Positions 1 through 40,685 of a DNA stretch of 64,000 nt are shown piece by piece. The notes under the pieces are model-generated. The model was not told the DNA's origin, ran no database searches, and worked only from the letters and a program-made list of their open reading frames with translations. The stretch lies in IMG/VR virus record IMGVR_UViG_3300038760_000071, positions 1 through 64,000 of that record. One strand, 5' to 3'. Source of the DNA: a virus. Positions within the stretch are counted from its first letter, which is position 1. Each line of letters begins with the position of its first letter. The translations under genes and the position numbers were made by a program.

Positions 1-1680
1 GGTAGGTGTTATTGAAGGCGTAACTGTAACTGAAGGTGTAACTGTAACTGAAGGTGTTATCGACGGGGTAGGTGTTATCGACGGTGTAACTGTAACTGAT
101 GGTGTAACAGTAACTGATGGTGTAACTGTAACTGAAGGTGTTATCGACGGGGTAGCTGATGGCGTCCGGGTTACTGAAGGCGTTACTGATACAGAAGGAG
201 CAACATAACAACCTAGATATATATCTAAACCACTTTCGGTGTTGAATTCAACACCAGCCTCACCTAAGAGAATGAAATTGCATGTAGCTGACGGTGTAGG
301 TGTTATAGATGGTGTAACTGTAACTGATGGTGTAACAGTAACTGATGGTGTTATCGACGGGGTAGGTGTTATAGATGGTGTAACTGTAACTGAAGGTGTA
401 ACTGAAGGTGGTGGTGAAGGTAGTGGTGTAACTGAAGGTGTAACTGTAACTGATGGTGTAACAGTAACTGATGGTGTTATCGACGGGGTAGGTGTTATAG
501 ATGGTGTAACTGTAACTGAAGGTGTAACTGAAGGTGGTGGTGAAGGTAGTGGTGTAACTGAAGGTGTAACTGTAACTGATGGTGTAACAGTAACTGATGG
601 TGTAGGTGTTATCGACGGTGTAACTGTAACTGATGGTGTAACTGTAATTGAAGGTGTTATCGACGGGGTAGGTGTTATAGATGGTGTAGGTGTTATCGAC
701 GGTGTAACTGTAACTGAAGGTGTTATCGACGGGGTAGGTGTTATAGATGGTGTAACTGTAGCTGATGGTGTTATCGACGGTGTAACAGTAACTGAAGGTG
801 TAACTGTAACTGAAGGTGTTATCGACGGGGTAGGTGTTATAGATGGTGTAACAGTAACTGATGGTGTAACAGTAACTGATGGTGTTATAGATGGTGTGGG
901 TGTTATAGATGGTGTAACAGTAACTGATGGTGTTATCGACGGGGTAGGTGTTATCGATGGTGTAACAGTAACTGAAGGTGTAACAGTAACTGAAGGTGTT
1001 ATCGACGGGGTAGGTGTTATAGATGGTGTAACAGTAACTGATGGTGTAACAGTAACTGATGGTGTAACTGTAACTGATGGTGTAACTGTGACTGATGGTG
1101 TTATAGATGGTGTAACTGATGATGTAACTGTAACTGATGGTGTTATAGATGGTGTAACTGATGATGTAACAGTAACTGATGGTGTTATAGATGGTGTTGG
1201 TGGGATATGTCCTTGAGATGGTGTAACTGAAGGTGTAACTGAAGGTGTAACAGTAACTGATGGTGTAACTGTAACTGAAGGTGTTATCGACGGGGTAGGT
1301 GTTATAGATGGTGTAACAGTAACTGATGGTGTAACAGTAACTGAAGGTGTAACTGTAACTGAAGGTGTTATAGATGGTGTAACTGTAACTGAAGGTGTAA
1401 CTGTAACTGATGGTGTTATAGATGGTGTAACTGTAATCGAAGGTGTCACTGTAACTGAAGGTGTTATCGACGGTGTAACTGTAACTGAAGGTGTTATCGA
1501 TGGTGTAACTGTAATCGAAGGTGTCACTGTAACTGAAGGTGTTATAGATGGTGTAACAGTAACTGATGGTGTAACTGTAACTGATGGTGTAACTGTAACT
1601 GATGGTGTAACAGTAACTGAAGGTGTTATCGACGGTGTAACTGTAATCGAAGGTGTTACTGATGGTGATAGGGGAATAGG
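1..1680. repeat. Degenerate tandem repeat of ~18 bp
   Basis: Units such as ggtgtaactgtaactgat and ggtgttatcgacggggta recur over the whole stretch with only two short interruptions (about 180-290 and 1195-1220). All units are multiples of 3 bp, so length changes keep the protein frame. The repeat encodes the Pro/Thr/Ser tract on the minus strand and creates spurious long open frames on both strands. Confidence 0.9.
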
Positions 1681-2043
1681 GCAATTAAACTTATATCTCC
1701 AATCCGGCCCAAGGGGTGAATACACCCGCACTATAGCAGTATTAGTGGGGTGGTTTTTTAAAATAGATACAGTACTTAGAGCGCTAGTAAAAACGAAAGG
1801 AAACCCATCCGGTGCGATAGGTAGATTGCCCAACTCTGGTATAGGTCCCTTCGCTGTTAACCCACCAACAAAAACATTTCTATGACTGCCACCATAGTTA
1901 TAAACATAACTACCAATATAATAGGTATCTAAAACTATATTGGAGCTAAACTCAACTATATATCTCTCTGGTTTATTACCCGGGTCATAATGAAATAGAC
2001 ACTGAGACGGTACAGTCGAGGTCGGTGTCGGTGTAGGGGCCAT
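1..2043 (-). CDS. Mucin-like Pro/Thr/Ser-repeat protein with N-terminal paralogous module (partial, C-terminus beyond left edge)
   Basis: Reading the minus strand from an ATG at 2043 gives an open frame that reaches position 1 without a stop (681 codons), so the gene runs off the window. Residues ~20-125 form a globular module with landmarks [25 protein letters not shown] and VRVYSPL. The same module occurs in the next two genes upstream. The rest is [15 protein letters not shown]-type repeats, broken once by a short non-repetitive stretch (~250-205). [11 protein letters not shown] unit near 1210 matches [10 protein letters not shown] in the 2414-5368 protein, which confirms the frame. The gene starts 17 nt after the upstream stop, so it is probably co-transcribed. 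Its place after the fibre genes suggests a virion-surface or host-contact role, which is inference. Two other long frames through the repeat are by-products of repeat periodicity. Confidence 0.8.
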
Positions 2044-2060
2044 ACCACAACTCAGTAACA

Positions 2061-2414
2061 CTAAGTTTGATAGACCGGGCATCCCATAGTAAATTCCCAA
2101 TTGGGTTCAGCAAGGGGAGAGTATACACGGACAATTGCTTCGTCTATTAAAATGTCGTTGTTAAAGGTTAGCGTTCCTGTAGTGGGTGTAAAAACATAAG
2201 GTAGACCATCAGGAGCAATTGGTAAATTATACAGCTCCGGAATAGTATTTGATGTAAAGCTATTAACAAAATCACCTCGTAGATAACCACCAAAATCATA
2301 TGCACTGCTACCTACGTAGAATGTGTCAATAACAATAGCAGAATTATACTCTACAATATACCTCTCCGGCTTTTCACCTGTACTGAAGTTAAATGATGTG
2401 GTTAAGGTTGACAT
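2061..2414 (-). CDS. Stand-alone copy of the PTS-protein globular module
   Basis: 117 residues, with no signal peptide or membrane segment. The landmarks [29 protein letters not shown] and VRVYSPL match the N-terminal module of the downstream gene and the module at ~727-832 of the upstream 984-residue protein. It lacks the Pro/Thr/Ser tail entirely. Its ATG overlaps the upstream stop (TAATG), a translational-coupling arrangement. I do not recognise the module as a named family. Three homologous copies in three adjacent genes suggest duplication followed by loss or gain of the repeat tail. A role as a small surface or adhesin subunit is inference. Confidence 0.75.
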
Positions 2415-5368
2415 TATGGTATTGGTGTTACTGGTGGTGTTTTCGAGGGTGTAACTGAAGGTGGTTCTGGAACACCAGATGGTAGTGGTATAGTTGGTGT
2501 TATAGATGGTGTAGCAGTAACTGATGGTGTTGGTGATACTGATGGAGAAGCTGCTGGGGTAGCTGGTGGTGTAGCTGATGGTGTAGGTGCCGGTGGAGAT
2601 GGTGGTACGTATCCTTCTGATGGTGTAGGAGATGGTGTTACAGGTGGAGTATATGGTATAAATCCAAGTGAAGTTGATGGGGTTATAGATGGTGTTATCG
2701 AAGGTGTAACAGTAACAGATGGTGTAGGTGATATAGCTACTGGGGATGTGCTCGGAGTAGGTGTTACTGAAGGTGACACTGGTGGTGTTGGATTAATAAG
2801 TGTTATTATTTGCTCAGCTGGGTAATATTTATTTACACCACACTCAAAGGTAACTGTTTCACCACATGTAATTTTTCTATATGGGCAGCCAATATAAACC
2901 TCCCAATCTTTACCAGATAGAGGGTCATACACATGGGTTGCAATTCTATTTTTATCGGTATCCTTATAGAATGTTGATAAAGCATATGCTACTGTGGAAT
3001 CAATATAAGGATATCCGTCTGGTGCTACACTTAAGCCTGTAAATTGGGTATAACCACTATCAGTAAGACCTGCAATAAATGTCTGTCGGTCACCTCCTGT
3101 ATAATTATAGGAATCATTACCTACGTAGCCTGTATCAACTACATCAACGCCATCATAATTAAATATAAACCTAGTTGGGTATGATGTTGCATTCCATTCA
3201 ATATCAACAGTACCTATTGTACCAGAAATGTCATACAATACAGTCGGTATTAAGTTACTATCCGAATTACTATATGTGGCAGATAAGCCACATAATAGGT
3301 TAGGATACCCAATCGCTGGCTCCATTCCTAGGAATGGTAGTATACCAATATCTTCTTTTTCTGGAACAGGTTCTGCCGGATTTCCCAATATAGTATTGTC
3401 AATACTAAAAGAAGATAGTTGAGTAAAGCTGTTGGTAGTCGTCTCCGGAGCTTCGGCTTTGCCTTCAACATGAAAATTATCAATTATAACATTTAGATCA
3501 GTGCTGCCTTTAGAGATGTTCTTAACAAATGATACTCCAGGTCTGAACTTAGTTGAGGTAGTAAAATTAAGCTCTATATTTTGTTCAAAGATATTAATGT
3601 AGTCATAATCTTCCAGTCTCTTATAGTCAACATAAATGGTTCTACCATAATTACCAAGTCTAGCTCTAAGTGTTTTGACACCATCACTAAGCAGATCAAA
3701 AGCTGAAATGGCTACATTACCTGCTAGATACTGATAACTTGATGCTTGATCCCCTCGTAGAGAGATGCTATTTGGCTTGCGTTCATTATACTGGTAACCA
3801 GAACGTATAGTATTATCAGCCAATTTTGCTTGTGCACCATAAACACCTAGATTATCCATACCAACACCAATAACACCTCCCTGGAGCCCTATTGATTTTT
3901 CATACGATCCGGCAGTATATTGTATTCCGGAATAACCTAAATTAATACCACGTCCACCATAATCGAGATCTACACTCGCATCTTGTAAAAATAAACATAG
4001 GCCAAAGCTATCATTTTCATCCCACGCGGTTAATTCATAGTTAAATGACCATGTAATGTCATATAGCGGTGATACCCCCTTTTCATATACTGTAACTGGT
4101 GACCCAGCTGATGGTATAGAGGCAGCCGGTGAAGGTGTTATAGAGGGTGTTACCGTTGGTGTTATTGAAGGTGTTACAGATGGTGTATGTGTAACAGATG
4201 GTGTAACAGATGGTGTTGGTGGTATATAACCTTGAGATGGTGTAACTGAAGGTGTTACTGATGGTGTCGGTGTTACTGATGGTGTTGATGTTACTGATGG
4301 TGTAACTGATGGTGTAACAGTAGGTGTAGGGGTTACTGAAGATGTTGGTGTTACTGTTGGTGTAACTGATTGTGTAACAGAAGGGGTGGGGGTTACTGAA
4401 GATGTTGGTGTTACTGTTGGTGTTTTAGATGGTGTTGGTGGTATATAACCTTGAGATGGTGTAACTGAAGGTGTTACTGATGGTGTCAGTGTTACTGATG
4501 GTGTTGGTGTGACAGATGGAGACGCTGTTGAGGTTGGTGATGGGTCTGGTGGTATATAATCTTTTGTTGTTGAGGGTGTTATTGAAGGTGTAGGTGTTAT
4601 TGAAGGTGTAGGTGTTATTGAAGGTGTTGGTGTTATTGATGGTGTAGCAGTAACAGATGGTGTTGGTGTTATTGAAGGTGTCGGTGTTATTGATGGTGTT
4701 GGTGTTATTGAAGGTGTTGGTGTTATTGAAGGTGTTGGTGTTATTGAAGGTGTTGGTGGTATATAATCTTTAGATGGTGTTATTGAAGGTGTAGGTGTTA
4801 TTGAAGGTGTAGGTGTTATTGAAGGTGTAGGTGTTATTGAAGGTGTAGGTGTTATTGAAGGCGTAGGTGTTATTGAAGGTGTTATTGAAGGTGTAGGTGT
4901 TATTGAAGGTGTAGGTGTTATTGAAGGTGTTACTGTTGGTGTGTGAGATGGGGATAGATCTGGTGGTATATAATCTTTTGTTGTTGAGGGTGTTATTGAA
5001 GGTGTAGGTGTTATTGAAGGTGTTGGTGTTACTGTTGGTGTTTTAGATGGTGTTGGAGGTATATAATCTTTAGATGGTGTTATTGAAGGTGTAGGTGTTA
5101 TTGAAGGTGTAGGTGTTATTGAAGGTGTTATTGATGGTGTCGGTGTTACTGTTGGTGTGTGAGATGGGGATGGATCTGGTGGTATATAATCTTTTGTTGT
5201 TGAGGGTGTTATTGAAGGTGTTGGTGTTATTGAAGGTGTTGGTGTTATTGAAGGTGTTGGTGTTATTGAAGGTGTTGGTGTTATTGAAGGTGTTGGTGTT
5301 ATTGAAGGTGTTGGTGTAACAGACGGGGTCGGTGTTATTGAAGAGGTGGGTGTAACAGACGGAGACAT
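2414..5368 (-). CDS. Large Pro/Thr/Ser-repeat protein with lectin-like domain
   Basis: 984 residues. Residues ~1-420 are [11 protein letters not shown] repeats interrupted by GYIPPTPS and KDYIPPDPS motifs. Residues ~430-660 are globular and resemble an L-type lectin/concanavalin A-like beta-sandwich: an acidic FGLCLFLQD stretch, [11 protein letters not shown], then [14 protein letters not shown]. Residues ~727-832 hold the module shared with the next two genes, with landmarks [15 protein letters not shown] and VYDPL. A second repeat tract fills ~855-984. Upstream, a TAAATA box lies 9 nt before the ATG. The arrangement, with extended mucin-like stalks separating beta-rich domains, suggests a surface fibre or adhesin. 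The lectin assignment rests on pattern only and no carbohydrate-binding residues were confirmed. Confidence 0.75.
4115..5350. repeat. Tandem repeat encoding the N-terminal PTS stalk
   Basis: Repeats of ggtgttattgaaggtgta and close variants, with unit lengths that are multiples of 6 bp. About every 150-300 bp they are interrupted by a segment reading ggtggtatataa(t/c)c on the plus strand, which encodes the YIPP motif. They are closely related to the 1-1680 repeat, so recombination between the two tracts is possible. Confidence 0.85.
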
Positions 5369-5783: not shown

Positions 5784-7352
5784 CTAAATTATATAGCCAA
5801 TAGCATTAAGAGAAATCTGTTGACCCGTGTAGCTTTTATATTTAAATGCACCAACTAGTTGATTTGTCGATGCATTTGCACTTAGAGGTAGCATCACTTG
5901 GCTTGCTACTCGGGTATCGTAATTTTTTGGAATTCCATATGACGACATAATTCTATAATGCTTAGTAGAATCTAGCAACTTAGTCTCATTTTTTGCATAG
6001 ACTAGCTCTGTGTTTTGGAATTTTTGAGTTGCATCATCAAAAACATACGCGTTAATAATTATAGCCGATGCTATACTAGGTACACTTACACCTGTATCTG
6101 TATATGTTGTACCATCATATGAAAATAAAGTAGGTGAAAAGACCATGTTAAATGAATAATCAGCAACACCACCTAAAGCTGTCTGATTAAAAATTTCTAC
6201 GGGGTCATCAAACCAGAATGTTGAGCTAGTAGAATCCCCACTTCCCCCGGCATTCGTATCTTTAGATGAATTGCTCCTAGGGTCTATACCTATAACCATA
6301 TCCCCAGTAAGCGGGTTTATAGCTGTCCCGGTTACCTCAACACCACCTACTACTGCGGATAACCCTGATTGTATAGTAACTGTTGATGATGCAATAGAAT
6401 CAGCTACCGATTTAATAATAAACAACGTGCCTTGTGCACTAAGTGAGCTGTTTAGTCCGGAAGCAACACTAAACGTGGTTGAGCTAGCTGGTGCACTACC
6501 GACTCCATATAGACTTGAATTTATATAATCCGGTAATTTAAATGACACACCGATGTTTGTACTACCAAATGTTTCGCCTATAACAGCGGATAATTGTGGG
6601 TAAGATACACCCGCGACTTCCTGACCATTACATAGTAGCCAACCCTCAGGAGCTCCACTAGCTTCAACATAGGGCATAATTGTACCGACTGGTATTGGTC
6701 CTCCGGAGGAGTTAAAAAAGAATGTTGAGCTCTGAGTTTGCGGTGACCATGTTAAATTACCAAGAACATCCGTTCTAAGATATGTATTATTGCTGAGACC
6801 ACCAATAGGGAAGGTGTACTCAACACTATTAATATCAAGCTTCTGTGGTAAATTTAAATATTCAGTAGAATTTGGTCTAATACTATCTGTTGAGATTCTA
6901 GAACCACTGAGTGATATTCTAGAATTCTCGTCTAACATAATGGAATTACCAAGCATATCAGTGCTAATATTAGCAGCAGATAGAGTACCAACAGATATAG
7001 TACCAGCAGCATCATCTACAACTATAGTACCATCCCCCGCAACTAACACTCTCCCGGCAGCAATCCACGAAGAGGTGGTTTTAATATATAGTGTGTTGTT
7101 AGTTGTATTTACTACATAATCACCTTCTACAGCATCTAATACTGTTGTATGATCTGCTACAGCATTTTTATATTTATTACCAACTACTATGCCTCCAGAT
7201 GTTGATGCATCGCCGATAAATAATCGTTTACTATCTGTGGTGTATCCTAACTCACCTTCTGATAACAAGATTTGTTGTCTATCATTATCACTACCTCTCC
7301 TAACGAGTAGTTTAAGTAATGTGTTTTCTAAAATTTCTATCTTTTTAGCCAT
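5784..7352 (-). CDS. Tail fibre / collar protein with Mtd-like N-terminus
   Basis: 522 residues. Residues ~10-55 (LVRRGSDNDRQQILLSEGELGY, then KRLFIGDASTSGG) match the N-terminal domain seen in Bordetella phage major tropism determinant and many tail fibres. Residues ~220-280 form a phage tail-collar domain: VGTIMPYVEASGAPEGWLLCNG, then YPQLSAVIG, then FKLPDY. The C-terminus is beta-rich and Ser/Thr-rich. The gene follows a paralogue with the same N-terminus by 2 nt, in one operon with the gp10-like protein. By analogy with T4 gp12 and other collar-domain fibres it should be a distal receptor-binding or fibre subunit. Receptor specificity cannot be seen. Confidence 0.75.
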   Translation of the reverse strand: MAKKIEILENTLLKLLVRRGSDNDRQQILLSEGELGYTTDSKRLFIGDASTSGGIVVGNKYKNAVADHTTVLDAVEGDYVVNTTNNTLYIKTTSSWIAAGRVLVAGDGTIVVDDAAGTISVGTLSAANISTDMLGNSIMLDENSRISLSGSRISTDSIRPNSTEYLNLPQKLDINSVEYTFPIGGLSNNTYLRTDVLGNLTWSPQTQSSTFFFNSSGGPIPVGTIMPYVEASGAPEGWLLCNGQEVAGVSYPQLSAVIGETFGSTNIGVSFKLPDYINSSLYGVGSAPASSTTFSVASGLNSSLSAQGTLFIIKSVADSIASSTVTIQSGLSAVVGGVEVTGTAINPLTGDMVIGIDPRSNSSKDTNAGGSGDSTSSTFWFDDPVEIFNQTALGGVADYSFNMVFSPTLFSYDGTTYTDTGVSVPSIASAIIINAYVFDDATQKFQNTELVYAKNETKLLDSTKHYRIMSSYGIPKNYDTRVASQVMLPLSANASTNQLVGAFKYKSYTGQQISLNAIGYII

Positions 7353-7354: not shown

Positions 7355-8380
7355 TTAGTATCTAAAAATTGGGATTGCGAACCTGTCTATAGGTTCCTCA
7401 CTATCAGAAGGTTGTACACCATCTATTGTTATAAAACCTGCTGATGATAGGGGGATGGTTGTCGAAGCTGATCGATCGTAGTTTGCAGAAATACACTCGA
7501 TAATTGTTGAAGGAACAGTGGTATTGTTAATATAATCTACATTACCATATCCGTTAAATGTAGTGGTGGTTGAATCATTTGCTGTAAGTGCATTATAAAT
7601 TGCAGTGTCCAACGAGCTAACAAACCCATTCGCGTCAGTAGATATAGTTGCTAGGGTTGCTGAGCCTGACGCATATTTTGGTGTTAGAGCTAATTTACTT
7701 GCCCCTACAGTAAAATCATCTGTATCGATAGTATTTGTTAATGCGCTTGCCGGTACGGCAGATAACTCTAATTGACCACTAATAAATTTGAAATTTGCAG
7801 TAGCATCTACCCCGATAGTATCACCACTACCACCACTTATACCATTACCAAATGCTGAGCTATTAATTTGATCTACACCAACCTGTATTACTGACAATGT
7901 ATTACTAGTTGTAATTCCGATTGTTGTATTATCTACATTTGCTGAAAGTCCGGATGAGTTAACGGATAAGGCACCATCAGCATAAACTACACTCGAATCT
8001 AAATTACTTGCGCTTATAGAGTTTCCTAATAACGTTAGTTTATTATTAACATTATATTCAAAATAAGTTGGATCAATCTTGGTACCTATAAATGCCCAAT
8101 CTACTACCTGCGAATAATCATTACCAGATAGTTGATATAATAAATTATTATCATACACTATATCACCTAAGACCGCATCTGTAAGTAATATTCTAGAACC
8201 TATAGTTAGCGGGGCATGTATTATATTACCTACAATCTGCCCACCACTAGTAAATCCATCACCCACCCACACACGCTTTGTATCTGTAGTATATCCTAAC
8301 TCACCTTGCTCGAGAATAACGGCCCGTCGTTGACTATCTGTACCTCTACGAATTTTTAACTTTACTATTTCTATATCCAT
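7355..8380 (-). CDS. Tail fibre protein with Mtd-like N-terminus
   Basis: 341 residues. The N-terminal ~55 residues (LKIRRGTDSQRRAVILEQGELGY, then KRVWVGDGFTSGG) are homologous to the start of the next gene, indicating duplication of an attachment domain. The remainder is low-complexity Ser/Thr/Asn/Ala sequence typical of trimeric beta-structured shafts, ending in a short distinct tip (DRFAIPIFRY). It has no collar domain. TAAATA lies 3 nt before the ATG. Probably a fibre shaft subunit docked on the baseplate through the N-terminus. Confidence 0.7.
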   Translation of the reverse strand: MDIEIVKLKIRRGTDSQRRAVILEQGELGYTTDTKRVWVGDGFTSGGQIVGNIIHAPLTIGSRILLTDAVLGDIVYDNNLLYQLSGNDYSQVVDWAFIGTKIDPTYFEYNVNNKLTLLGNSISASNLDSSVVYADGALSVNSSGLSANVDNTTIGITTSNTLSVIQVGVDQINSSAFGNGISGGSGDTIGVDATANFKFISGQLELSAVPASALTNTIDTDDFTVGASKLALTPKYASGSATLATISTDANGFVSSLDTAIYNALTANDSTTTTFNGYGNVDYINNTTVPSTIIECISANYDRSASTTIPLSSAGFITIDGVQPSDSEEPIDRFAIPIFRY

Positions 8381-8400
8381 TACTATTTACCGTTGAGTGG

Positions 8401-9006
8401 TTAAGCTGTTCTCTTCCAGATATACACCCCATAACCGGGAGGTGTGTTGTTATGTGCAATACCGAGCCCAGTGGTATCGGTATTTGTAGATGATGCCATG
8501 CTGCGCTCATCCGGTCTTCCGCCGTTATCTGTATAACCACCAATTGCTTGTTGAGCTGTAAATGCATGGCTGTGCTTTGGCATCTCATTAATATTTAATA
8601 TATGATCATATCTACCATCATTAGTATCACCAACAGTAAACGCTTTATTGCCGTAACCATCATTTCCAGTACCAGTACCTACAATAAATTTACCTTGTGA
8701 AGTCTGCTCCCATGTACCGCCAAATCTAACTTGCGGGTTAATATTATCAACGCTCATGAAAACAGAGCCAACAGGAAAAATCCTATCTACTATATATTGA
8801 AAGAATTTATCATCTAGGGAGTTTCCTGATAAAGCACCACTTACAGCAATACCATTACCGTCTCTACCGATTGCAAGAGAGCTCTTGTTACCAAACCCGT
8901 CATATACCCATTCTAGCCCGGAGGCTGGTATTGGTGCACCTTTAGCGTGTAAAACACCAACATAAGTATCATTAATGTTGGTGTTAGTTAGAGAAGTTGT
9001 CGCCAT
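8401..9006 (-). CDS. Baseplate gp10/gp12-type collar-domain protein
   Basis: 201 residues from the ATG at 9006; a TTG two codons upstream is a poorer start. The central and C-terminal part carries a recognisable sequence: IFPVGSVFMSVDNINP, RFGGTWEQ, GKFIVGTG, MPKHSHAF and finally PPGYGVYIWKRTA. This pattern belongs to the phage tail-collar/gp10 C-terminal type of domain and is common at the ends of baseplate pins and fibres. The His-x-His segment may bind metal inside a trimer, as in gp12, but that is inference. A TATAAATAAATA late box lies ~9-20 nt upstream. Confidence 0.75.
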   Translation of the reverse strand: MATTSLTNTNINDTYVGVLHAKGAPIPASGLEWVYDGFGNKSSLAIGRDGNGIAVSGALSGNSLDDKFFQYIVDRIFPVGSVFMSVDNINPQVRFGGTWEQTSQGKFIVGTGTGNDGYGNKAFTVGDTNDGRYDHILNINEMPKHSHAFTAQQAIGGYTDNGGRPDERSMASSTNTDTTGLGIAHNNTPPGYGVYIWKRTA

Positions 9007-9044
9007 ATACAATTATATTTATTTATATGGCATGCAATATACAA

Positions 9045-11003
9045 TTAAATCTGAATAATACTGTTTAAATTATATTGGGGCTGTATTCTAGGAGCCGCGT
9101 CGACAGCTATCAGGTTTAAAATATTCAGCTGCATACTATATAATTCTCTAAAACATCTATTAACGGTATCTACCAATGCTTCTTCATTACTATGAATCAT
9201 GAGATTTTTTAAATCTGTTTCTATAAATTTAGAGAAATCTAGATTATAGCCATACTTATCTAAAACTAATACATTATCTCTATATCTACCTTTAAATTTA
9301 CCAACAATATTGTTTTTAATGATCAATATATCTTCTAATAATTTATAAATTTCCTTATTTATTGAAGATATTTGAATATATTCTTCCGGGCTTAAGGAGA
9401 ATCCATTTATACCAAAATTATTATAGTTAGTTCGTTTTATAACACGTTGATATGCCTCAATAGTTGGTTCATTAAAGAAGTAGAACCTACTATTACTCGA
9501 CAGTATAATCTTATCATTACCATCCGGCCCCTCAAATACATTAAAACCATTAATATTATTGTTTGTTATACCAACAGACCCTTCTTCCACGTTATCTGTT
9601 CCAAATAAATTCCATGCAAAGTTTGAATTCTTCCACTCTACCTCTTGATAATTCCACCGATTATTAAAAGATTTATCTTCTACCTGATAATCAAGCAGAA
9701 ACATTCGGTTTGGTCCAAACTTACCTATGACTTCTGCGGGTCTAGTTTTAAATTTTTTGTATACACTCCACTGCGTTACAAAATACCAGTAATTACTCGC
9801 AGCTCTCGAAAATGATATTTCCTTAACCACCTCCCCATTTTGAAGATAATCATCTAATTGCACCCTCTCAATATTTCTAGTATCATCACTACTAAATCTA
9901 TAGAGGTAAGCTGTATTTAAGCCTGTTAAATCATCTATAGCATATGTTACCACATAAAGGACCCTAAAATCCGGATCAAACTCCATAGCTCCAAAAGTCT
10001 CTTTGTTTAAATCTATAGACGAAATCTTATTAATAAAATTAAAATACACATCAAATATTTTAATTACCTTATTCCCAGAGTCATATACCGCTACTTCACT
10101 ATCAGTACAAGCCAATTTAGTTGGTTGGTTAAACTTTGTCTGTCTTGTTGTCCCACCGTATCCTCCTACTTGATCAATATAATTTCTTCTATTACCTAGT
10201 AAAATATCTGTACTAAGACTTTTTGCTACACTCTCATTTGTAAACCCACGAATATCATATTTTATAACAACATTATTCTGCTTATCCGATAAAAATGCAT
10301 ATCTTTTATTTGATGCTATACCCGCCAATTCTCGGTAAGATAGTTCGTTTTCCTCATCTGTTTCATATCCTGTAGATTGCTCAATAATTTGTAATGTATC
10401 ATTACTACCGGTCATTGAGATAAATTTACTATCTGTTATAGCAAAGAGCGCGAAGTTATCTGCCGTGTTTTGAGCTACCTGTGATGAAACTTCTATAATA
10501 TTACCAATTGAGCTTAAGCTATTTGATTCAGAGAATGGTATAGTATTAACAAATTCACTACTCTGAATACTATCAGACTTAAATATGGTGAAATTATCAT
10601 CGCTAATACCAGATAACCCTGCAAATGTAATTGTATTTGTATACGGTAAATTATTTGCAGCAATAGAGAGCCTAGAGAAGGTGTAAGTATTGTTTTCACG
10701 AAGGTTATCTAATTTAAATTTTAGCAGATCGTAATTAAAATTATCGTTTATACTGAATATACACTCATCCAATGTTTTTGGTAGCTGTAGATCTAGATCA
10801 CCAACAACCCTATCCTTAAAAAAGGCAGACATTATTAGATCTGTATTATATGTATTTTTAGCTGTTAGTAGGCTGCCAGTTACCACATCCCTCGCTTCAC
10901 CTATATTAACATCAACTGTAAAATACCCAACGAAATCAGCTCCAGTTAGAGTAAACATATCACCGGAGGTGTACGTTCTTTTATATGCGGTATAGTCAAT
11001 CAT
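9045..11003 (-). CDS. Large virion protein, beta-propeller-like
   Basis: 652 residues. The middle portion has repeated strand-turn units resembling NHL/propeller blades, for example FNQPTKLACTDSEVAVYD followed by NKVIKIFDVYF. The C-terminal ~130 residues are helical. There is no signal peptide. The start overlaps the upstream 1102-residue gene by 4 nt (ATGA), so the two are translationally coupled and probably act together in the baseplate or fibre-attachment apparatus. Exact T4 equivalent not recognised. Confidence 0.6.
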   Translation of the reverse strand: MIDYTAYKRTYTSGDMFTLTGADFVGYFTVDVNIGEARDVVTGSLLTAKNTYNTDLIMSAFFKDRVVGDLDLQLPKTLDECIFSINDNFNYDLLKFKLDNLRENNTYTFSRLSIAANNLPYTNTITFAGLSGISDDNFTIFKSDSIQSSEFVNTIPFSESNSLSSIGNIIEVSSQVAQNTADNFALFAITDSKFISMTGSNDTLQIIEQSTGYETDEENELSYRELAGIASNKRYAFLSDKQNNVVIKYDIRGFTNESVAKSLSTDILLGNRRNYIDQVGGYGGTTRQTKFNQPTKLACTDSEVAVYDSGNKVIKIFDVYFNFINKISSIDLNKETFGAMEFDPDFRVLYVVTYAIDDLTGLNTAYLYRFSSDDTRNIERVQLDDYLQNGEVVKEISFSRAASNYWYFVTQWSVYKKFKTRPAEVIGKFGPNRMFLLDYQVEDKSFNNRWNYQEVEWKNSNFAWNLFGTDNVEEGSVGITNNNINGFNVFEGPDGNDKIILSSNSRFYFFNEPTIEAYQRVIKRTNYNNFGINGFSLSPEEYIQISSINKEIYKLLEDILIIKNNIVGKFKGRYRDNVLVLDKYGYNLDFSKFIETDLKNLMIHSNEEALVDTVNRCFRELYSMQLNILNLIAVDAAPRIQPQYNLNSIIQI

Positions 11004-14000
11004 GAGTAGTCCTTAAATTGAATTTCATTTATCTTAATGCCAACAGGTAGTATATCCTTAGATTCATTTAAGATATTTGCCTTTATTTGCGATCTTATCA
11101 CCTCATCAGTTATATTTAGGTTTTTAACCACTATATCGATATTTTGACTAGAGTTATATCTACCAAGTTTAAAGAATCTCTCTATTTGTATCTTATTATT
11201 TCTTTGACTGCTGGGTATAGAAAGTACGAGATCATCTATCTGCTTATTTTGTAAGTATAGAGCATGAATGGTGTTAGTATCAACAGCTTTATCAAACACT
11301 GTAATATTTTTTAGTTCTAAATCCTTTATATAGTAATAACCAGGCTGTCTTATATATGTTGAAAGATCCAAACCATTTTGAAATCCTGTAGAACCTATAT
11401 ATAATTCATCAGTGAATATATCTTGTATTTGATACTTACCTGCAGGTAAGGTCATATTTTCATACAATCTACCATTAATATACAGTGTTGAGTTACCTTG
11501 CAAACTATCAAACCTATATGTGAATGTATGATATCCAGCGTCAATTGTAGTAGTATCAAATGATATTGTTTGAGTTAAACTATCTTCTCGATCTAGGTAA
11601 TTCTGTAATGTGAGTTTGAAATCAATTGACATACTATCATACAATCGATTAATATTGTTATAATTCGTTAGTGGTATATTATAGGTGTTTTTAGTCTTAA
11701 CTGCCGCCGTGTCTAGTCTAGTAGCTACTTTACCTCTAGTGAGATATAGCTGATTATTAATACCTGCGCATAAATACACAGGATATTGCACTTTTGATCC
11801 ATTAATATATTCATTGACAAAATCAATTGAAATTATACTACCACCAGAAAGTGGTAAAAGTAGCTCATCCCCCTCTACTGTATCAAAATTAGCTGAGAGC
11901 TGAAACACTCCATTGGTGTTATACTCATACATTGTATTTTCTGTCGCGATGTATATAATATTATCCTTAACATTAATATCTGTAATTGGTGTGGCTGATT
12001 TAAGAAATGCCTGAGGTTGAGACCTCAAATCATGTTTAACAACATAGTTACTAACTGTATAAAATATAGTTTCATTGTTTTCCCACCTTAAATTGGTACC
12101 AGGTAATTTAAAAAGCGTATCATTTACCTCTACAATATTTTCATAGATTGAAAACTCATTTTTATAAACATCAAACTCAGCAGCAGTCAAGGGTGTAGAT
12201 TCTAAATTATTGACGTTGAGTTTATTAACCTCACCAGTAGATGATATAAAGCTAATACTATCTGTCTCTTGATAGCTGCCGAGATAATCAGTAATCCTAG
12301 AATTACACTCTAATCTAACCTTATTACCCTGTGGGGTAACTTTATAGAATAAATTACCGCTAGTTGCTATAGTGTAATCTTCCAGTGCACCCCGTTTGTA
12401 TATATCTTTAATGTTTGTCTTGAAGTTAACTTTATTAAGAAGTACAAATTTGGAATTGTATATATACAGCACATTACCACTAACGACATGTATAAATGGT
12501 GTGACTGTTTGATCCTGAAAAACACCAAACCCTTGGTTAGTGTTGTTACCTAAAATCTGAAACCCATATTGTTTATTTGGATCTAGATAAGTATCAAAAG
12601 AAATAGTAAATGATTTGCTATTATTAATTTTTTCATACACACTCAGCTTAGAAAATATTGTACCATTATAATACAGACTATTTGAATTATACGGAATGCA
12701 TGTATTTTCAGTCTCTCCTCGTAAGATACGTGAAGAGAAATAATCTGTAAAGGAAGATACGATAGGAGATTGAGTGCTTATTATATCTTTGATACTATCA
12801 AGTCCTACCCTCTCATATCGTAGCGAAATGTTTGGCACTATAGCAAGATCACTTTTTTTATCAAAGAATTTTCCTCTAACCAGTTTAGTATTTGGTATAG
12901 CAATTGCGGTCGCGTCCACACTATCATAAAATGATGGTGTGTATCTTGGTATACTTGATAATGCTTGTATTTTAGTAAGTTTATCAGGGTAATAATATCT
13001 ATCAACCCACACTCCATCACTATTAATATTATCAGCTGATAGCCAGGTGCATAAGTACCTACCATTCTGATATATACCACTAGTAGTTCTTTTAGTGTAT
13101 ACTTTATCCGCTAGCAGTGGTGATGGTCCTGCAAAACTGCCGTTTTGTGAAAAGGTAGTATCATTAATATTCAACCTGCTATATGGGTATATAGCAGAAG
13201 GTGCGTTAAAGTAAGTATCTGAACCATTTTTAATAAACACATCTTTATCATAAAATGTATAGTTGAGATTTATTTTTTCAGAACCCCTCTCTTGCTCAGC
13301 GCCAGTGTAGAATGTATTATATGTCCTATAATCATAGCTACCAATACCGCCTGGGGTTTTGAGCATATTACTACCTCGTTTAATAAAATTGAATTCTGAT
13401 CTATAGGTATCTGTAGTAAAGTAATTTAGTGGAAAGCTAGCTGAGGATATTGTGTTATAATTTGTCTGAAACACATACTGGCCTACATCATCAAATGAGC
13501 TATTAAGTGTATCAATTTTAAGGCTGTTGAGTTTTTCTGATTTATAGCTTACAAAACTGTTATTGAGAGATAGTTTAGATTTTTCTAATGAGTAATCTAT
13601 ATGAATTAAATTATTCAGTGACCTGTTGAGCCCACCCGTTTGCATCTCTGTAAATACAACAGTGTTACCACTTAATGTTAGTATATTAAGACTATTGTTT
13701 ACAAATTTATATATCTGTAAATAACCATCACTATCAATAGAGTACCTAAATACATCATTGTTTTCTGCTGTAACATCGTCTACATCACTTATATAGTTGT
13801 AGAAAATAACACCGTTTGTGTCTGGATTATAATTTAAAAAATAATCCCGCTTACCACTATTATGCTTAATTCGAGCATACTTATTATTAAGCATCTCTAA
13901 CTCAAAATAGAAGTTGTTTATATGACCGTTTAAGTCGTTAAAGGTCTTAAGACCTACCTGCTTCTGCTCATCAGTGGCAGATAGGCTGTTTGATGAGAAT

Positions 14001-14308
14001 ATGTATAGATAGGCAGGGTTTAGACCAGTTCCCCGTTTAAAGTATAATTTAGAAGTTAAGGTTGTAGCTGGAAGTTGAGATAAGGTGGATAATTGTATGA
14101 AGTTTGTTAAGTTATCCTTATTTGTTAGATATAAATTTGAATAATTATTTATCCTTACATCCCTAGCACCAGAAAGTGCAGTGATATTATTAATATAAAA
14201 TTCTTGCTCGAGTGGAGATCTTTGTTGATTTATCTGAACAAACTTATCAGCAAAATTCGCAGTAGGGAATGCAACTGAGCTTACTGATCTGTTATATGTA
14301 CTTGACAC
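11000..14308 (-). CDS. Very large virion protein with LamG/ConA-like domain
   Basis: 1102 residues from a GTG at 14308, which sits 6 nt after a TTAAATA late box. The sequence is beta-rich, with Asn/Ser/Thr and Tyr throughout. Residues ~910-1045 resemble a laminin-G/concanavalin-type sandwich: YHTFTYRFD, STLYINGRLYE, DELYIGSTGF and ITVFDKAVDTNTIHALY. Such domains occur in phage structural proteins and can bind glycans. The gene is operonic with the 652-residue protein. Role inferred as baseplate-peripheral or fibre-connecting. No T4 counterpart recognised. Confidence 0.6.
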   Translation of the reverse strand: MSSTYNRSVSSVAFPTANFADKFVQINQQRSPLEQEFYINNITALSGARDVRINNYSNLYLTNKDNLTNFIQLSTLSQLPATTLTSKLYFKRGTGLNPAYLYIFSSNSLSATDEQKQVGLKTFNDLNGHINNFYFELEMLNNKYARIKHNSGKRDYFLNYNPDTNGVIFYNYISDVDDVTAENNDVFRYSIDSDGYLQIYKFVNNSLNILTLSGNTVVFTEMQTGGLNRSLNNLIHIDYSLEKSKLSLNNSFVSYKSEKLNSLKIDTLNSSFDDVGQYVFQTNYNTISSASFPLNYFTTDTYRSEFNFIKRGSNMLKTPGGIGSYDYRTYNTFYTGAEQERGSEKINLNYTFYDKDVFIKNGSDTYFNAPSAIYPYSRLNINDTTFSQNGSFAGPSPLLADKVYTKRTTSGIYQNGRYLCTWLSADNINSDGVWVDRYYYPDKLTKIQALSSIPRYTPSFYDSVDATAIAIPNTKLVRGKFFDKKSDLAIVPNISLRYERVGLDSIKDIISTQSPIVSSFTDYFSSRILRGETENTCIPYNSNSLYYNGTIFSKLSVYEKINNSKSFTISFDTYLDPNKQYGFQILGNNTNQGFGVFQDQTVTPFIHVVSGNVLYIYNSKFVLLNKVNFKTNIKDIYKRGALEDYTIATSGNLFYKVTPQGNKVRLECNSRITDYLGSYQETDSISFISSTGEVNKLNVNNLESTPLTAAEFDVYKNEFSIYENIVEVNDTLFKLPGTNLRWENNETIFYTVSNYVVKHDLRSQPQAFLKSATPITDINVKDNIIYIATENTMYEYNTNGVFQLSANFDTVEGDELLLPLSGGSIISIDFVNEYINGSKVQYPVYLCAGINNQLYLTRGKVATRLDTAAVKTKNTYNIPLTNYNNINRLYDSMSIDFKLTLQNYLDREDSLTQTISFDTTTIDAGYHTFTYRFDSLQGNSTLYINGRLYENMTLPAGKYQIQDIFTDELYIGSTGFQNGLDLSTYIRQPGYYYIKDLELKNITVFDKAVDTNTIHALYLQNKQIDDLVLSIPSSQRNNKIQIERFFKLGRYNSSQNIDIVVKNLNITDEVIRSQIKANILNESKDILPVGIKINEIQFKDYS

Positions 14309-14342
14309 TACCTTTATTTAATTGCAAACTTGGAGTTAAAAC

Positions 14343-14864
14343 TTAATTTCTCTCCAATAGTGTAATGTATGTTTGCTTATTATACTTACTTTGAAAGTTA
14401 GCAACAGTATTTGATGTTAAGTGATGAACCTGTGTATTTATAATTGATAGTTGCTTAATATTATCATAATATGACTCATGTACCAATTTAATGGGTTGAT
14501 AGACATGTGCAGAATATCCATTACTAAAAAATATTAAGAATTGAGCTGTGAGATTTGTAAAAAATGAGCTACTATTTGGGGTATATGTATGGTTACGTGT
14601 AGAGAGTATTGTACCACCCAGCTTCCCATATAACATTTCTGTAAATATGGAATTCTCTTTATAATCATATACCAACTCTTTAGAGTAATACTCTGTTTTT
14701 GAACCATCGCCCCAGTCTAAATCTAGATCTAAAGCTGATACTACAGTCTCCTGAATACCAGTAAGTATAAATTGAATGGTGTATGTGCCCTTAGCTATAA
14801 TTTCATCAAGCACTAGTGATGTATCTTCAGTTATAGATGTTAAACTTGTGTAAGATGTTATCAT
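14343..14864 (-). CDS. PKD-like virion protein
   Basis: 173 residues. LDLDWGDGSKTEYY followed by VYDYKENS resembles the core of a PKD-type Ig fold (W-x-x-GDG, then a Y-containing strand), but it is shorter than a full PKD domain. The start overlaps the upstream 982-residue gene by 4 nt. It sits within the baseplate operon and is probably a small virion component. The family assignment is tentative. Confidence 0.55.
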   Translation of the reverse strand: MITSYTSLTSITEDTSLVLDEIIAKGTYTIQFILTGIQETVVSALDLDLDWGDGSKTEYYSKELVYDYKENSIFTEMLYGKLGGTILSTRNHTYTPNSSSFFTNLTAQFLIFFSNGYSAHVYQPIKLVHESYYDNIKQLSIINTQVHHLTSNTVANFQSKYNKQTYITLLERN

Positions 14865-17809
14865 ATAGTTAAGTTAAAATTAGTATTATCAATTGTATAT
14901 GAACTATATCTAGATGACACTGTTGCAAATTGTGTTGATTGTCCAAATGTTGTAGATCTAACACAACTTTCTAATGTGTTATACTTATACATACTCTTAA
15001 GAGCCATTCCACAATTATTTAGCTCAAACTCAGCATCATATATATGAGTTAGTTCGTTTAAATCGTTAACAATATAGGTAAGCTTAAACACATTATTTAA
15101 TTTATTGTATGTTAAAAATGGTGTCTGTATTTTTTCAGCCGCAAAATTATTATTTATAGTACCAGATAAGCTAGTTCGGAATGAGCTCAATGTTTGTTCT
15201 GTAGATTGTAGTGGAAATAATTTGCTATAGTTACATGTATGTGTGTTATAAACATATATATTTGGGACAATATACCAGTAATTTTTTGCAACTGCTGATG
15301 CAGAAGTAAACGATGTTGAAATCGTCTCAAATATAGTAAAATATATACTATCTGTACCTTCTATATAAAATCTATTTGAAAACTGATTTGTTTTAACAGC
15401 ACTATTAATAGAAAACAGTGTATTTTTAGTATTGGGTATCTCAAATACTCCATTGGTGTATGCTATTTTATCAATAGCTAAATTATTTGGTGTTTGCAAC
15501 ACTATACAATCATTAATAACATCAAAATCAACAGTGTTATTGTATATATCATTCTGTACCGCGGTACTATACTTAGATAGTATGTTTGAAAGAGCGGCTG
15601 AGATAGGTAGAGATTGTGAATATCTCTGATTTTTGATATATATCTTACCTGTCAATCTCTTTTTATCTTCATTGGTTAACACTACACTCTCTGAGGTGAG
15701 CGAAGATAAGACAGTTAGTGAATCATCACTAACATCATCAAGATATATGTAATCATCTGCATAGTTAAAGGAATTCTTTAATGATATATCATCAGTAAAA
15801 TACCCACCATTATAATACTTGTATTGATCACCAGCTGATAGGTAATATTTAATATCTGTTGCGAAATTAAATTCATAATTATTACCACCAAGCTCGAACA
15901 GATCATCCTCGGTAGCAATATTTGAGAGTGGGGATTGCTCTGTTCCAATCGAGTCTAAGATTGGAAATGTCCCTTCAGCTAGAATAGTATAATAATAGTT
16001 GAGGGGGCCAGGCCAATTTGGATCAAACCCAGATAAGGGTTCCGGTAGTAACGTGTTATCTAAAAAGGCAAATGCCCCACCATCCCTCCATATAGGGTTA
16101 ATGCTTCTAGTTCTTTGAATTAATTCTTGATATGGTGTAAACTCCCTAAAATACATGTAGAGATCAGGATCTACAGTGGTAAAGCCATCTGTGTAAGATG
16201 ATAGTCCTGATCTTATAGAACCATTTAATGAACCTGTGAGTGAGTAGTTAAAATTGTGTCCTTCGATATCATCAAAAAACTCATAACCATCTAATAACAG
16301 GTTTAGTACAGTATTATTTGTTTTCTCCTCTAAAGGTTTTAGAGGTTGGGCTTTAAATAATGCATACTCATTACCATATGGATCAAACTGGTATTTGTCT
16401 ATTATACCCTCTTCATACAAATCTGTAAAATTTAAATTGTAACTTAGCTCATTTAAAATTGATAACTCATCAGAGTCCCGCTCTTTAGTGTTATATGGCT
16501 CAAATGTTGTTGTTTTGTGAGTAATATAGGGGTCACCTGATGCTATACCACTAGATGCATTTCGAATATTCTTTCTATTATCAATCTTAAATGTAACTGG
16601 ATAAGCACTTTGCGGATTAACCGTAACATTACCATACAATTCCGGGTCTGGAAAAATATAAACTTTATTATTTTCTAGATCCTCTACATTAATTGTATAT
16701 GTATAATTATCTGCATTTAGCTTGAAGAGCCCTATATTATCAGGTTCGAAAAATATACCAACATCTCGCAATAAGCGTATTTCATTACTTTCTACAGTTG
16801 CTGTATCTGCAGTTTGTAGGTTTAATAGGTTATTTGTAGGTGTATCTGCTTGTATTAGTAATCCAGAGGTAGGTGGGAATGATGTGGTATCTATATAATA
16901 GATGTCAGTACCGATATATTTCTCTAGTAACCTTCTCTTAAGAGCATATATTTTTGATTGACTGCACCCATCTATAGTGTTGTTGTTAATGAGTGTATTA
17001 AGTGGATTCTCCGGATTACATATTGGGTCAAATGTATTAATTGTTAGTTTGGGCGGGTTAATACTAAATGATCTTATACTTTCTAGAAAGCTAGTAGATG
17101 TTAAAGCATCTATTGCATCCGGGTCTAAAAAATATTTTGATTCAATATCATTAATATTACTATCATATATCTCTTCGCGAAGACCATCATCTGTTGTTGT
17201 TCTCGGTAAATCAAAATAGTTGCTATATACATCAATATATTCTTCTATATCTATATTAAAATTTGCAGCAATTGTATCTACATCATATGTCTTAGAATGT
17301 AATGTATCTTCCGCGGTAATTACAAAGTTATATATGTTGTCAAAAATTGCTTTCTCTACACCAGTTTTACTACCTTTAATTTTATTACGCTCAATTACAT
17401 ATTTGCTTTCATCCCGCTTCTTTTTATAAAACAGAGCTATATCTTTTAGTTTGTTTGCAAAAAAAGGAATCGCGATGTCTAAATCAGCAGGGTCGTTAAA
17501 GTTAATTTTCTGTAAGAATCGTTTTTCGCTCTCAGTAGTATAATTAACTACTATTTCTTGAATAAACTCCTTATAATAGTTTTTAAATTGCGTGAGTTGC
17601 TCTGCCTTAGATCCGCCCTGTTTTGAATACCAGAGTTTTAAATATTTGTTATAGAAGGAGCTATATTCCTCTGGAGTATAGTCAACACGTGTATATGTAA
17701 TGAAATCGAGAAATGATAGTGGTGCAATACTATCTCGAATATCATCTTGAGGTGTTGAGTTAATAATAGAAAACCCAACCTCAACCGTTTTATAATTTTC
17801 ACCTGCCAT
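14861..17809 (-). CDS. Large baseplate protein (candidate gp7 analogue)
   Basis: 982 residues. Residues ~30-200 are helical and conserved-looking: PLSFLDFITYTRVDYTPEEY, TTESEKRFLQKINF, IPFFANKLKDIALFYKKKRDE. The rest is beta-rich. It lies two genes downstream of gp6 in the T4-like wedge order, and its length is close to T4 gp7 (about 1,030 residues). A wedge role is therefore plausible, but no gp7 motif was confirmed. The ATG lies 6 nt after an ATAAATA late box. Confidence 0.55.
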   Translation of the reverse strand: MAGENYKTVEVGFSIINSTPQDDIRDSIAPLSFLDFITYTRVDYTPEEYSSFYNKYLKLWYSKQGGSKAEQLTQFKNYYKEFIQEIVVNYTTESEKRFLQKINFNDPADLDIAIPFFANKLKDIALFYKKKRDESKYVIERNKIKGSKTGVEKAIFDNIYNFVITAEDTLHSKTYDVDTIAANFNIDIEEYIDVYSNYFDLPRTTTDDGLREEIYDSNINDIESKYFLDPDAIDALTSTSFLESIRSFSINPPKLTINTFDPICNPENPLNTLINNNTIDGCSQSKIYALKRRLLEKYIGTDIYYIDTTSFPPTSGLLIQADTPTNNLLNLQTADTATVESNEIRLLRDVGIFFEPDNIGLFKLNADNYTYTINVEDLENNKVYIFPDPELYGNVTVNPQSAYPVTFKIDNRKNIRNASSGIASGDPYITHKTTTFEPYNTKERDSDELSILNELSYNLNFTDLYEEGIIDKYQFDPYGNEYALFKAQPLKPLEEKTNNTVLNLLLDGYEFFDDIEGHNFNYSLTGSLNGSIRSGLSSYTDGFTTVDPDLYMYFREFTPYQELIQRTRSINPIWRDGGAFAFLDNTLLPEPLSGFDPNWPGPLNYYYTILAEGTFPILDSIGTEQSPLSNIATEDDLFELGGNNYEFNFATDIKYYLSAGDQYKYYNGGYFTDDISLKNSFNYADDYIYLDDVSDDSLTVLSSLTSESVVLTNEDKKRLTGKIYIKNQRYSQSLPISAALSNILSKYSTAVQNDIYNNTVDFDVINDCIVLQTPNNLAIDKIAYTNGVFEIPNTKNTLFSINSAVKTNQFSNRFYIEGTDSIYFTIFETISTSFTSASAVAKNYWYIVPNIYVYNTHTCNYSKLFPLQSTEQTLSSFRTSLSGTINNNFAAEKIQTPFLTYNKLNNVFKLTYIVNDLNELTHIYDAEFELNNCGMALKSMYKYNTLESCVRSTTFGQSTQFATVSSRYSSYTIDNTNFNLTI

Positions 17810-38028: not shown

Positions 38029-38036
38029 TATTTATG
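38029..38036 (-). promoter_or_regulatory. Late promoter box, N5 before ATG
   Basis: Minus-strand CATAAATA followed by ttatt and the ATG at 38023. It overlaps the end of the terminase C-terminal gene. Confidence 0.6.
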
Positions 38037-39525: not shown

Positions 39526-40685
39526 AAGTCTTCTTTTGTTATTATCTTAAAAGCATAATCATTCTCTCTACACCACAATCGAGCTGCTTCAAACTTCGAC
39601 TGATTCAAAGGTTGATTTACAAACTCACGTGGCTTTACCTCGTATAATACTTTATTTACCTGATCACAAAAATCGACAATGTAAACTCGTTCCTTATTAT
39701 CATATGTGTAAGGAATTCGAATTAATTCATAATCTAAATGAGGATTATTTTCATGAAACATTACCTCCCAACTACTACGATAATTATTAAGTCCAGTTAA
39801 CTCTGAATATAACTTTTTATTGGAATATCTGTTGTTTGTATTTGGTGTAAATTCTCCGGTTAAAATCTTATTCCTCATAACATCGCTCATCTTTTTATAT
39901 ATTCCCCTAGCTCTATTTTTTTTTGTGAGTTTATCTCTCTTATCTTTTGTCCACGTCTTCTTATTTGACGTAGATATCTTGCTTTTTGTTGTTTCGCTAT
40001 GATGGTATCCCCTACGAGATTTCACTCTCCGCTCTTTAACATCACCAGATTGCAAATAAGACAAATCACGATCCTTCCCAATAGTACTCAAAACATCACT
40101 AATACATCGCTTCTTACTACACGTTTTATTCAAGAAGAATGTATTCCTATTTTTAAAGCTGCAATAATCACCACATATACAGTATATTGAATCATTACAC
40201 ATACTTGCAAATTTATATTTAATATCCTCAATACCTTCTGTATGTTTAGATATATTGTGAATTAAGTCCTTATCATTTAGCAATGATGTATAGGCTGCTC
40301 GTTGAACATAGTCAGATAATCGTAGCATCGTCTCATCCGGAGGCATTGATATACCATCTTCAAAGATACCATCTTTTAATCTATCAATAAAGGATGCAAT
40401 TGACTTTCCACTAAACGACACACCACCTTTAACATAGCCACGTTTATAGCTAATAAACTTCAAGTCTGGTAGGTAGTCGACATCATTAACTATATGATAT
40501 AACTTTTGACCGAGTGGTAGCTCATCTAACGTAGGTGTATCTCTATAATACTCATTTATAAAATTATAAACCTTCTCACCATCTTCGTATTTATCATACC
40601 ATGCTCTATAATATGAGTTTTTATTAAGCTTCTTATCCTCAAAGAAATCAACTATACATGACTGCATATAACGTTTATCGATCAT
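39510..40685 (-). CDS. Free-standing PD-(D/E)XK homing endonuclease at split B
   Basis: 391 residues. The N-terminal region is helical, followed by a Cys-rich segment (CICGDYCSF, then CSKKRC), a NUMOD-like basic helix region (YHHSETTKSKISTSNKK) and a C-terminal nuclease. The nuclease residues are visible as E307 in YRSSWEVMF, D338 in YIVDF, and E349-x-K351 in LYEVKP. It is placed exactly between the N- and C-intein halves of split B, so it likely cuts uninterrupted terL alleles and spreads the break. It has its own CATAAATA box 5 nt before the ATG. It appears complete. Confidence 0.75.
   Translation of the reverse strand: MIDKRYMQSCIVDFFEDKKLNKNSYYRAWYDKYEDGEKVYNFINEYYRDTPTLDELPLGQKLYHIVNDVDYLPDLKFISYKRGYVKGGVSFSGKSIASFIDRLKDGIFEDGISMPPDETMLRLSDYVQRAAYTSLLNDKDLIHNISKHTEGIEDIKYKFASMCNDSIYCICGDYCSFKNRNTFFLNKTCSKKRCISDVLSTIGKDRDLSYLQSGDVKERRVKSRRGYHHSETTKSKISTSNKKTWTKDKRDKLTKKNRARGIYKKMSDVMRNKILTGEFTPNTNNRYSNKKLYSELTGLNNYRSSWEVMFHENNPHLDYELIRIPYTYDNKERVYIVDFCDQVNKVLYEVKPREFVNQPLNQSKFEAARLWCRENDYAFKIITKEDLCEKI

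Follow-up and report, generated by a model that had tools for sequence, protein, structure and literature searches.

A putative tail-fibre-type locus with Thr/Pro/Ser-rich stalks and a shared, predicted beta-sandwich module at the end of a phage contig

We analysed a stretch of 64,000 nucleotides of phage DNA (hereafter the window), which corresponds to bases 1-64000 of the 80,259-base IMG/VR record IMGVR_UViG_3300038760_000071, and focused on three minus-strand genes at its left end, gene 1, open reading frame (ORF) 2 and ORF3 (Table 1). The reading that we favour, with moderate confidence, is that this locus is the distal end of a tail/baseplate operon and encodes tail-fibre-type surface-binding proteins, whose Thr/Pro/Ser-rich stalks (PT stalks) would serve as spacers and as recombination joints. 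The stalked heads are probably used to hold on to bacteria. As expected for a phage tail fibre or receptor-binding protein, the locus is encoded among tail and baseplate genes: its strand also carries a tail sheath, a baseplate hub and an endolysin/tape-measure match in PHROGs, and the tail-gene order of the window is repeated in a stretch of another viral contig, L007, and in a pair of related stretches, L034/L032. Relatives of the upstream gene with collar and Mtd_N domains precede the adhesin gene in L007 (57%) and in L034 (51% over 359 residues). Since window base 1 is also the contig end, the leftmost gene is cut inside its stalk and is incomplete; its reading frame (1-2100, minus strand) has 700 codons and is open at the window edge.

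An earlier note, made from the letters of this DNA alone, had described a module of about 100 residues present alone, at the N-terminus of one repeat protein and inside another. This arrangement was recovered in the three same-strand ORFs (ORF2, gene 1 and ORF3, respectively). The module has three matches only in its own record, at 2064-2414, at 1675-1998 (51% identity, E 9.5e-33) and at 2879-3205 (31% identity, E 2.1e-17), and 27 alignment columns are invariant across the three copies, APDG and VYxPL among them. In a broader alignment of 18 modules, an N-terminal strand carrying a Cys is present in 13; ORF2 and gene 1 lack it, and the remaining three, all from the stretch L005, have a Cys just before the alignment cut. 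A Cys near the module end, usually as CP, is invariant in all 18. The unit is thus real, but because the N-terminal Cys strand is missing from ORF2 and gene 1, the size given in the note is that of a shortened form of a domain of about 140 residues. Structure prediction, a check that the note had suggested, gave a confident model (for ORF2, mean predicted local distance difference test score (pLDDT) 90.4 and predicted template modelling score 0.83), in which the module is a predicted beta-sandwich with a jelly-roll-type likeness. The best structural neighbour of module A, the complete copy in ORF3, is a Klebsiella phage baseplate protein (Z 7.6, 106 residues, root-mean-square deviation 3.2), and that of ORF2 reaches Z 5.6 over 67 residues. 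Three viral models of BFVD match ORF2 at E <= 0.001.

Table 1. Coordinates of the locus and of its neighbours in the window (T+P+S, content in Thr, Pro and Ser; AF2, AlphaFold2).
Feature	Coordinates	Strand	Remark
ORF3, 984 aa: N-terminal PT stalk, lectin-like domain, complete module A, module B remnant strand, C-terminal PT tract	2414..5368	-	
ORF3 N-terminal Thr/Pro/Ser stalk, 411 aa	4136..5368	-	75.4% T+P+S
Lectin-like domain, ORF3 residues 412-646	3431..4135	-	relatives in other contigs
Module A, complete form including N-terminal Cys strand	2870..3292	-	AF2 pLDDT mostly >90
Module B remnant: CG-start and first strand, 17 residues	2792..2842	-	aligned to module B start of L007 and to protein ends of L034/L032
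ORF3 C-terminal PT tract, 125 aa	2417..2791	-	69.8% T+P+S (over 126 aa)
ORF2, 117 aa: module minus N-terminal Cys strand	2061..2414	-	
Gene 1: module and PT stalk, cut by contig end	1..2043	-	ATG 2043; alternatives ATG 2082, TTG 2100
Gene 1 module, without N-terminal Cys strand	1675..2001	-	
Gene 1 PT stalk, at least 558 aa	1..1674	-	two-Cys 25-residue segment at 208-282
Phage Tail Collar (PF07484) and Mtd_N (PF18454), upstream neighbour	5784..7352	-	Pfam
Mtd_N (PF18454) protein, second upstream neighbour	7355..8380	-	Pfam
Tail sheath, 783 aa	35045-37396	-	phrog_23 aligned over 7-782

Of the 40 tandem-repeat rows found in the window, 30 lie in the region 1-5368. Two of the three ORFs carry stalks made of Ser/Thr/Pro-rich tandem repeats, with a T+P+S content of 68.3% in gene 1 and 75.4% in the N-terminal stalk of ORF3, so that their description as mucin-like holds for composition only. 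The motif D[ST][AILVMT], which we take to be the O-glycosylation motif of Bacteroidota, occurs 0 times in the five PT tracts, a result with which other O-glycosylation systems remain compatible. The repeats had also been thought to be near-identical between genes, which is contradicted by their DNA: the gene 1 stalk shares only 8.0% of the 15-mers of the ORF3 stalk, whereas 50 synonymous-codon shuffles that kept the protein gave 25.8% on average, and the longest stretch common to both is 26 nt. Within genes, the longest exact repeats measure 167 nt in gene 1 and 95 nt in ORF3, and the share of repeated 30-mers is 54% in gene 1 (4% after shuffling) and 40% in ORF3 (5% after shuffling). The stalk DNA is homogenised within each gene, and this excess over protein-keeping shuffles indicates that each stalk was homogenised or expanded independently. 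Successive identical 12-mers are always spaced by multiples of 3 (1209/1209 and 719/719), as announced; an open reading frame implies such a spacing anyway.

In L007, the whole locus is a single gene. This stretch was found by a search of viral contigs with the head of ORF3 (63% over the 304-residue query, in the lectin-like domain). Synteny with the window extends over four proteins of 53-67% identity, from one of 652 aa to that of the collar gene. The 1365-aa protein of L007 begins with a stalk, in which two 414-bp units match at 87%; a lectin-like domain follows, then modules A and B, and a second stalk. Window ORF3 keeps the first 17 residues of module B after module A and continues as a PT tract to its stop, which overlaps the ORF2 start (TAATG), and the module B start is missing from the bodies of ORF2 and gene 1. 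The 'three tandem genes' of the earlier note are therefore, beyond being three ORFs on one strand with the leftmost cut, a split and partly duplicated fibre-type gene. In L034/L032, the protein with the lectin-like domain and module A ends at the same point as the window split, and a second ORF encodes a propeller-like part, a stalk, module B without its start, a stalk and a trypsin-like part with a GGDSGSP motif (the propeller and protease labels were assigned by eye; a Pfam scan of the second ORF of L032 gave no match). The break is an in-frame TAA in L034/L032 and a frame change in the window. The two ORFs lie in the same frame with a single stop between them (L032 1215-1223; L034 around 2791-2793, minus strand), the TAA of L032 being followed by AAA ATG, and read-through of this stop would give one protein.

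The single ORF of L007, together with a contig end that falls inside a stalk, where repeats may have troubled the assembly, could also mean that the three ORFs are really one gene interrupted by sequencing or assembly errors in the repeats. We consider this quite unlikely. L032 and L034 have identical lectin-like genes, under different IMG sample numbers, and count therefore as one lineage; this lineage and that of the window break at one point, which argues against sequencing error, and the L034/L032 break is a stop codon rather than a frameshift. Furthermore, the ORF3 frame is PT-rich up to a stop that overlaps the start of ORF2. A bolder proposal, which we regard as unlikely, gives the split a function: the lectin-like protein retains, at or near its C-terminus, the first strand of module B (its CG...YP...I start), with which a separately encoded module B body could lock together by fold complementation, yielding a multi-protein fibre of exchangeable stalked heads with the PT stalks as recombination joints.

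Our favoured reading, of surface-binding proteins joined through stalks, draws on a comparison of the contigs behind L032 and L034 (G007 and G008), which are 97.5% identical over 7,785 bases, gaps left out. Their second ORFs have 1138 and 1126 codons, a net difference of 36 nt that preserves the frame, and every gap falls in the second stalk. The idea that copy-number change would alter stalk length in frame is borne out by this pair as far as length and frame are concerned, but the segment concerned has diverged (58% identity in 115 aligned columns) and looks like a replacement, not like repeat units cleanly added or removed. The Mtd_N gene is 95.3% identical, the collar gene 97.2%, module B 93.6% and the protease-like part 85%. 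In the midst of these, a tract of 3,093 bases (L036 4298-7390) has one mismatch. Both the lectin-like gene and the propeller-like part fall within it, as does most of the first stalk, where it ends; the 43 bases that follow hold 14 mismatches. Nonsynonymous/synonymous codon differences number 8/37 in the collar gene, 8/38 in the Mtd_N gene, 0/0 in the lectin-like gene, 1/1 in the propeller-like part and first stalk, 9/33 in module B and the following stalk, and 55/52 in the protease-like part. The simplest reading of this pattern would be a recent recombination that imported one block, with one end in a stalk, beside a fast-diverging distal part. A scan for more strains returned only the same two contigs. 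Other pairs were L016/L018 (75% over 2.3 kb) and L019/L020 (identical), neither with a usable stalk comparison, and L015/L017 (97.5%, with 20 gap openings).

We extended the analysis of the module to other viral contigs. A profile search seeded by the L005 modules confirmed 12 of 29 stretches at 11 loci, including one on the L005 contig itself. The module is carried by 14 other IMG/VR contigs, L007, L032 and L034 included. The match of L014 is limited to the first 53 of the 118 profile positions, and those of L016, L018, L019 and L020 are in two pieces; L019/L020 are identical, and L015/L017 and L032/L034 near-identical. Among named phages, tblastn with the L011 module retrieved 40 records (31 Flavobacterium, 8 Cellulophaga and 1 Xanthomonas) and with the L015 module 38 records, 2 Stenotrophomonas among them; one L005 module retrieved no named phage. 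The short-form L015 module matches large-genome phages, namely Xanthomonas phage XacN1 (E 4e-16) and Stenotrophomonas phages CM1/RAS14 (E 9e-14), and these gammaproteobacterial phage matches indicate that the module family is not confined to Bacteroidota phages. One pattern scan of genome contigs gave 46 pattern matches and 0 relatives, which leaves room for a cellular source. L005 itself encodes, at 7973-15139, a giant protein with modules and TP stalks; its M12B metallopeptidase match exceeds the cut-off, whereas those to trypsin and vWA fall just short of theirs.

The C-terminal end of Cellulophaga phage phi18:3 gp114 (YP_008241307.1) is such a module (tblastn E 2e-8; profile 38.9 bits, i-Evalue 1.5e-13 in a three-sequence test). 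This protein is recorded as a virion protein, with an 'annotation based on experimental MS/MS proteomics analysis' (MS/MS, tandem mass spectrometry). This annotation is the sole virion support for the family and concerns a distant relative that lacks a PT stalk. It nevertheless speaks against secretion or display of the window proteins by the infected cell, outside the virion, for surface masking or protease delivery. The peptidase matches of the L005 giant protein (M12B above, trypsin just below cut-off) and the GGDSGSP motif noted by eye in L032/L034, although L032 has no Pfam match, would suit such a role, as would the longer start of gene 1 (ATG 2082), which adds a short hydrophobic stretch ending in LLSC. 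The locus lies, however, at the end of tail genes, and ORF3 and ORF2 have no evident signal peptide as judged by eye; we find this alternative very unlikely.

There is a minor but real chance that the module is instead a general adhesive of the virion surface, sticking particles to polysaccharide, mucus or other particles, without setting host range. Ig-like domains occur on many capsids and tails, and the module is found C-terminally on varied proteins, namely the L015 protein matching phrog_14478, phi18:3 gp114, and those of L012 and L013; its weak structural likeness to CBM51 and collagen-binding domains points the same way. In the window and its relatives, by contrast, it is joined to a lectin-like head, beside the collar gene and at the end of the tail genes.

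This lectin-like domain has relatives in L007 (65%), in L024, L026 and L034 (43-46%), in L025 (32%, distant), and also in L029 and L032. Its glycine-rich pattern, GGxGxxLGYS...GGVIGxGxD, is one that we take to be lectin-like. All 16 PDB matches of the L025 domain are legume lectins, over the same 50-61 residues and at E 0.011-0.36; these chains are near-copies of each other and therefore count as one match. A profile of the domain (A8) matched an antibody chain alone in PDB (E 0.13), and tblastn of the L025 and L026 domains against phages gave none. Searches of the module and of the lectin-like region against Pfam, PHROGs and PDB sequences gave nothing convincing, and the 13 PDB sequences matched by window 2864-4135, which are 3C proteases, fatty-acid enzymes and HRB1 (E 0.0093-0.25), were regarded as chance matches. 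The lectin label, drawn from this glycine-rich pattern and from weak matches, is thus a lead and implies no family membership.

Several observations weigh against the tail-fibre reading. All PDB fold matches of the module have Z < 8, so that the likeness may be only a common arrangement, and a Pfam search at E <= 1 gave nothing for the module. By tblastn, no named phage was retrieved with either the module or the lectin-like region of the window. The L015 module sits on a protein that matches phrog_14478, a head-and-packaging family, so that the module alone does not signify a tail fibre. The lectin-like domain has no Pfam match at E <= 1, and PF18483 has no match at E <= 10 in the two records searched; by E-value, the concanavalin A (ConA) matches of L025 are no stronger than the presumed-chance 3C protease matches (best E 0.0093), and the AF2 model of the lectin-like part has pLDDT mostly <50, with only two alignment rows covering it. 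As to the stalks as joints, the near-identical tract has its other end in the collar gene, within the final 90 bases, and not in a stalk. With boundaries set by eye, the first stalk occupies about 0.41 kb of the 4.8 kb, or 1 in 12, and the two stalks together about 0.95 kb, or 1 in 5; since they take up about a fifth of the locus, the tract may have ended in one of them by coincidence. It represents a single event in a single pair, and stalk-length variation is known from the L032/L034 pair, not from the window's own population.

With these points considered, we still prefer the reading of tail-fibre-type proteins at the end of the tail/baseplate operon. The long Thr/Pro/Ser stalk of ORF3 would present its lectin-like head and its beta-sandwich module, while ORF2 and gene 1 would supply further copies of the module, that of gene 1 on its own stalk. 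The globular heads (lectin-like and module, with propeller-like or peptidase parts in relatives) would contact the host or surrounding glycans, the stalks would hold them apart, and the stalk DNA could be the site both of in-frame length change and of recombination joining different heads. Glycan binding, tail attachment, recombination as the cause of the tract, and the same stalk behaviour in this phage are what we infer. The adhesin locus proposed earlier is in this way plausible, through its tail-operon context, its lectin-like domain (a glycine-rich pattern with weak matches) and a module relative annotated by MS/MS, but not through near-identity of repeats between genes. What the analysis delineates is a widespread, so far unnamed surface module of phages; it is linked here to a lectin-like head, and one of its relatives carries a virion-protein annotation. 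The locus also offers a concrete case of a low-complexity stalk resembling both a length-variable spacer and a recombination joint. As the contig ends inside a stalk, such variation would be under-recorded if short-read assemblies often break there.

The remainder of the record was examined for context. PHROGs matches were obtained for 6 of 10 scanned proteins, including tail sheath, terminase large subunit, baseplate hub and endolysin/tape-measure, and these predicted functions mark the source as a contractile-tailed phage. The tail sheath is covered at 33-35% (C-terminal third) in the 15 best of 2612 matching phage records, and a coverage of 80% is reached in 0 of the 2612; the closest named sheath among the matches listed is that of Pelagibacter phage HTVC008M, with 43% identity over one third of the query. 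Of the 11 proteins that follow the adhesin in L007, several of them replication-like by eye, none was matched in the 80,259 bases by tblastn (E <= 1e-3), and the record is therefore probably a fragment. A reading of the locus as a diversity-generating retroelement target (Mtd) gained no support: no reverse transcriptase (PF00078, E <= 0.1) was found in the record, itself probably a fragment.

Some further features lie outside the locus. The terminase large subunit is interrupted (window 38032-43737, minus strand): the ORF 42043-43737 (minus strand) contains an internal intein with a LAGLIDADG/Hom_end match, and an apparent split intein has its halves at the end of this ORF and at the start of 38032-39525, with Intein_splicing matches below the model cut-off. 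A TnsA-like nuclease (39510-40685) and a DUF7487 protein (41166-42083) are encoded between the intein halves, an arrangement that presumably resembles 'fractured genes'. A tandem repeat (CACCATCATCGA units) occurs at 58408-58890 (plus strand) within a 160-aa ORF that has no Pfam match at E <= 0.01. Beyond the window, at 66326-68714 of the record (G000; L004 4326-6714), repeated motifs such as EVWDKVRDEVWGE recur in several short consecutive ORFs.

Lectin-like heads on phage fibres, and the modular exchange of such fibres, are known in general. ConA-like domains are reported in the tail fibres gp22 of Acinetobacter phages fLi-Aba02/03 (PMC11058221). A literature search by titles and abstract openings found no description of the module family, of the split-gene placement or of PT stalks as recombination joints.

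Among known systems, the closest to the module are phi18:3 gp114 and phi13:2 gp120, whose C-terminal 130 residues or so belong to the same family (for phi13:2 gp120, i-Evalue 1.7e-9 in the three-sequence test and tblastn E 3e-12). Unlike the window proteins, they are 1612-1613 aa long and have no PT stalk (at most 45% T+P+S per 40 aa). Flavobacterium phage Fpv5 gp13 (745 aa) matches the module profile, but is likewise stalkless. A short module form is found in phrog_13374 (unknown function, 745 aa), which is matched by L011, L016, L018 and L019, but not by ORF2 or ORF3. CBM51, PPC/collagen-binding and GOLD domains are among the best structural neighbours of the module, with Z up to about 6.8 for module A and 5.6 for ORF2; identity is about 10%, Z stays below 8, and the module has no sequence link to them. 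The likeness of the ORF3 domain to L-type/ConA-like lectins consists of the glycine-rich pattern and the weak ConA matches of L025, whereas the window domain has no Pfam match, stands beside a beta-sandwich module and is borne on a stalk, as in L007. Finally, with respect to T4-like short tail fibres, no Pfam collar domain was found in ORF2, ORF3 or gene 1, whereas the gene directly upstream of them belongs to the tail collar family (PF07484).

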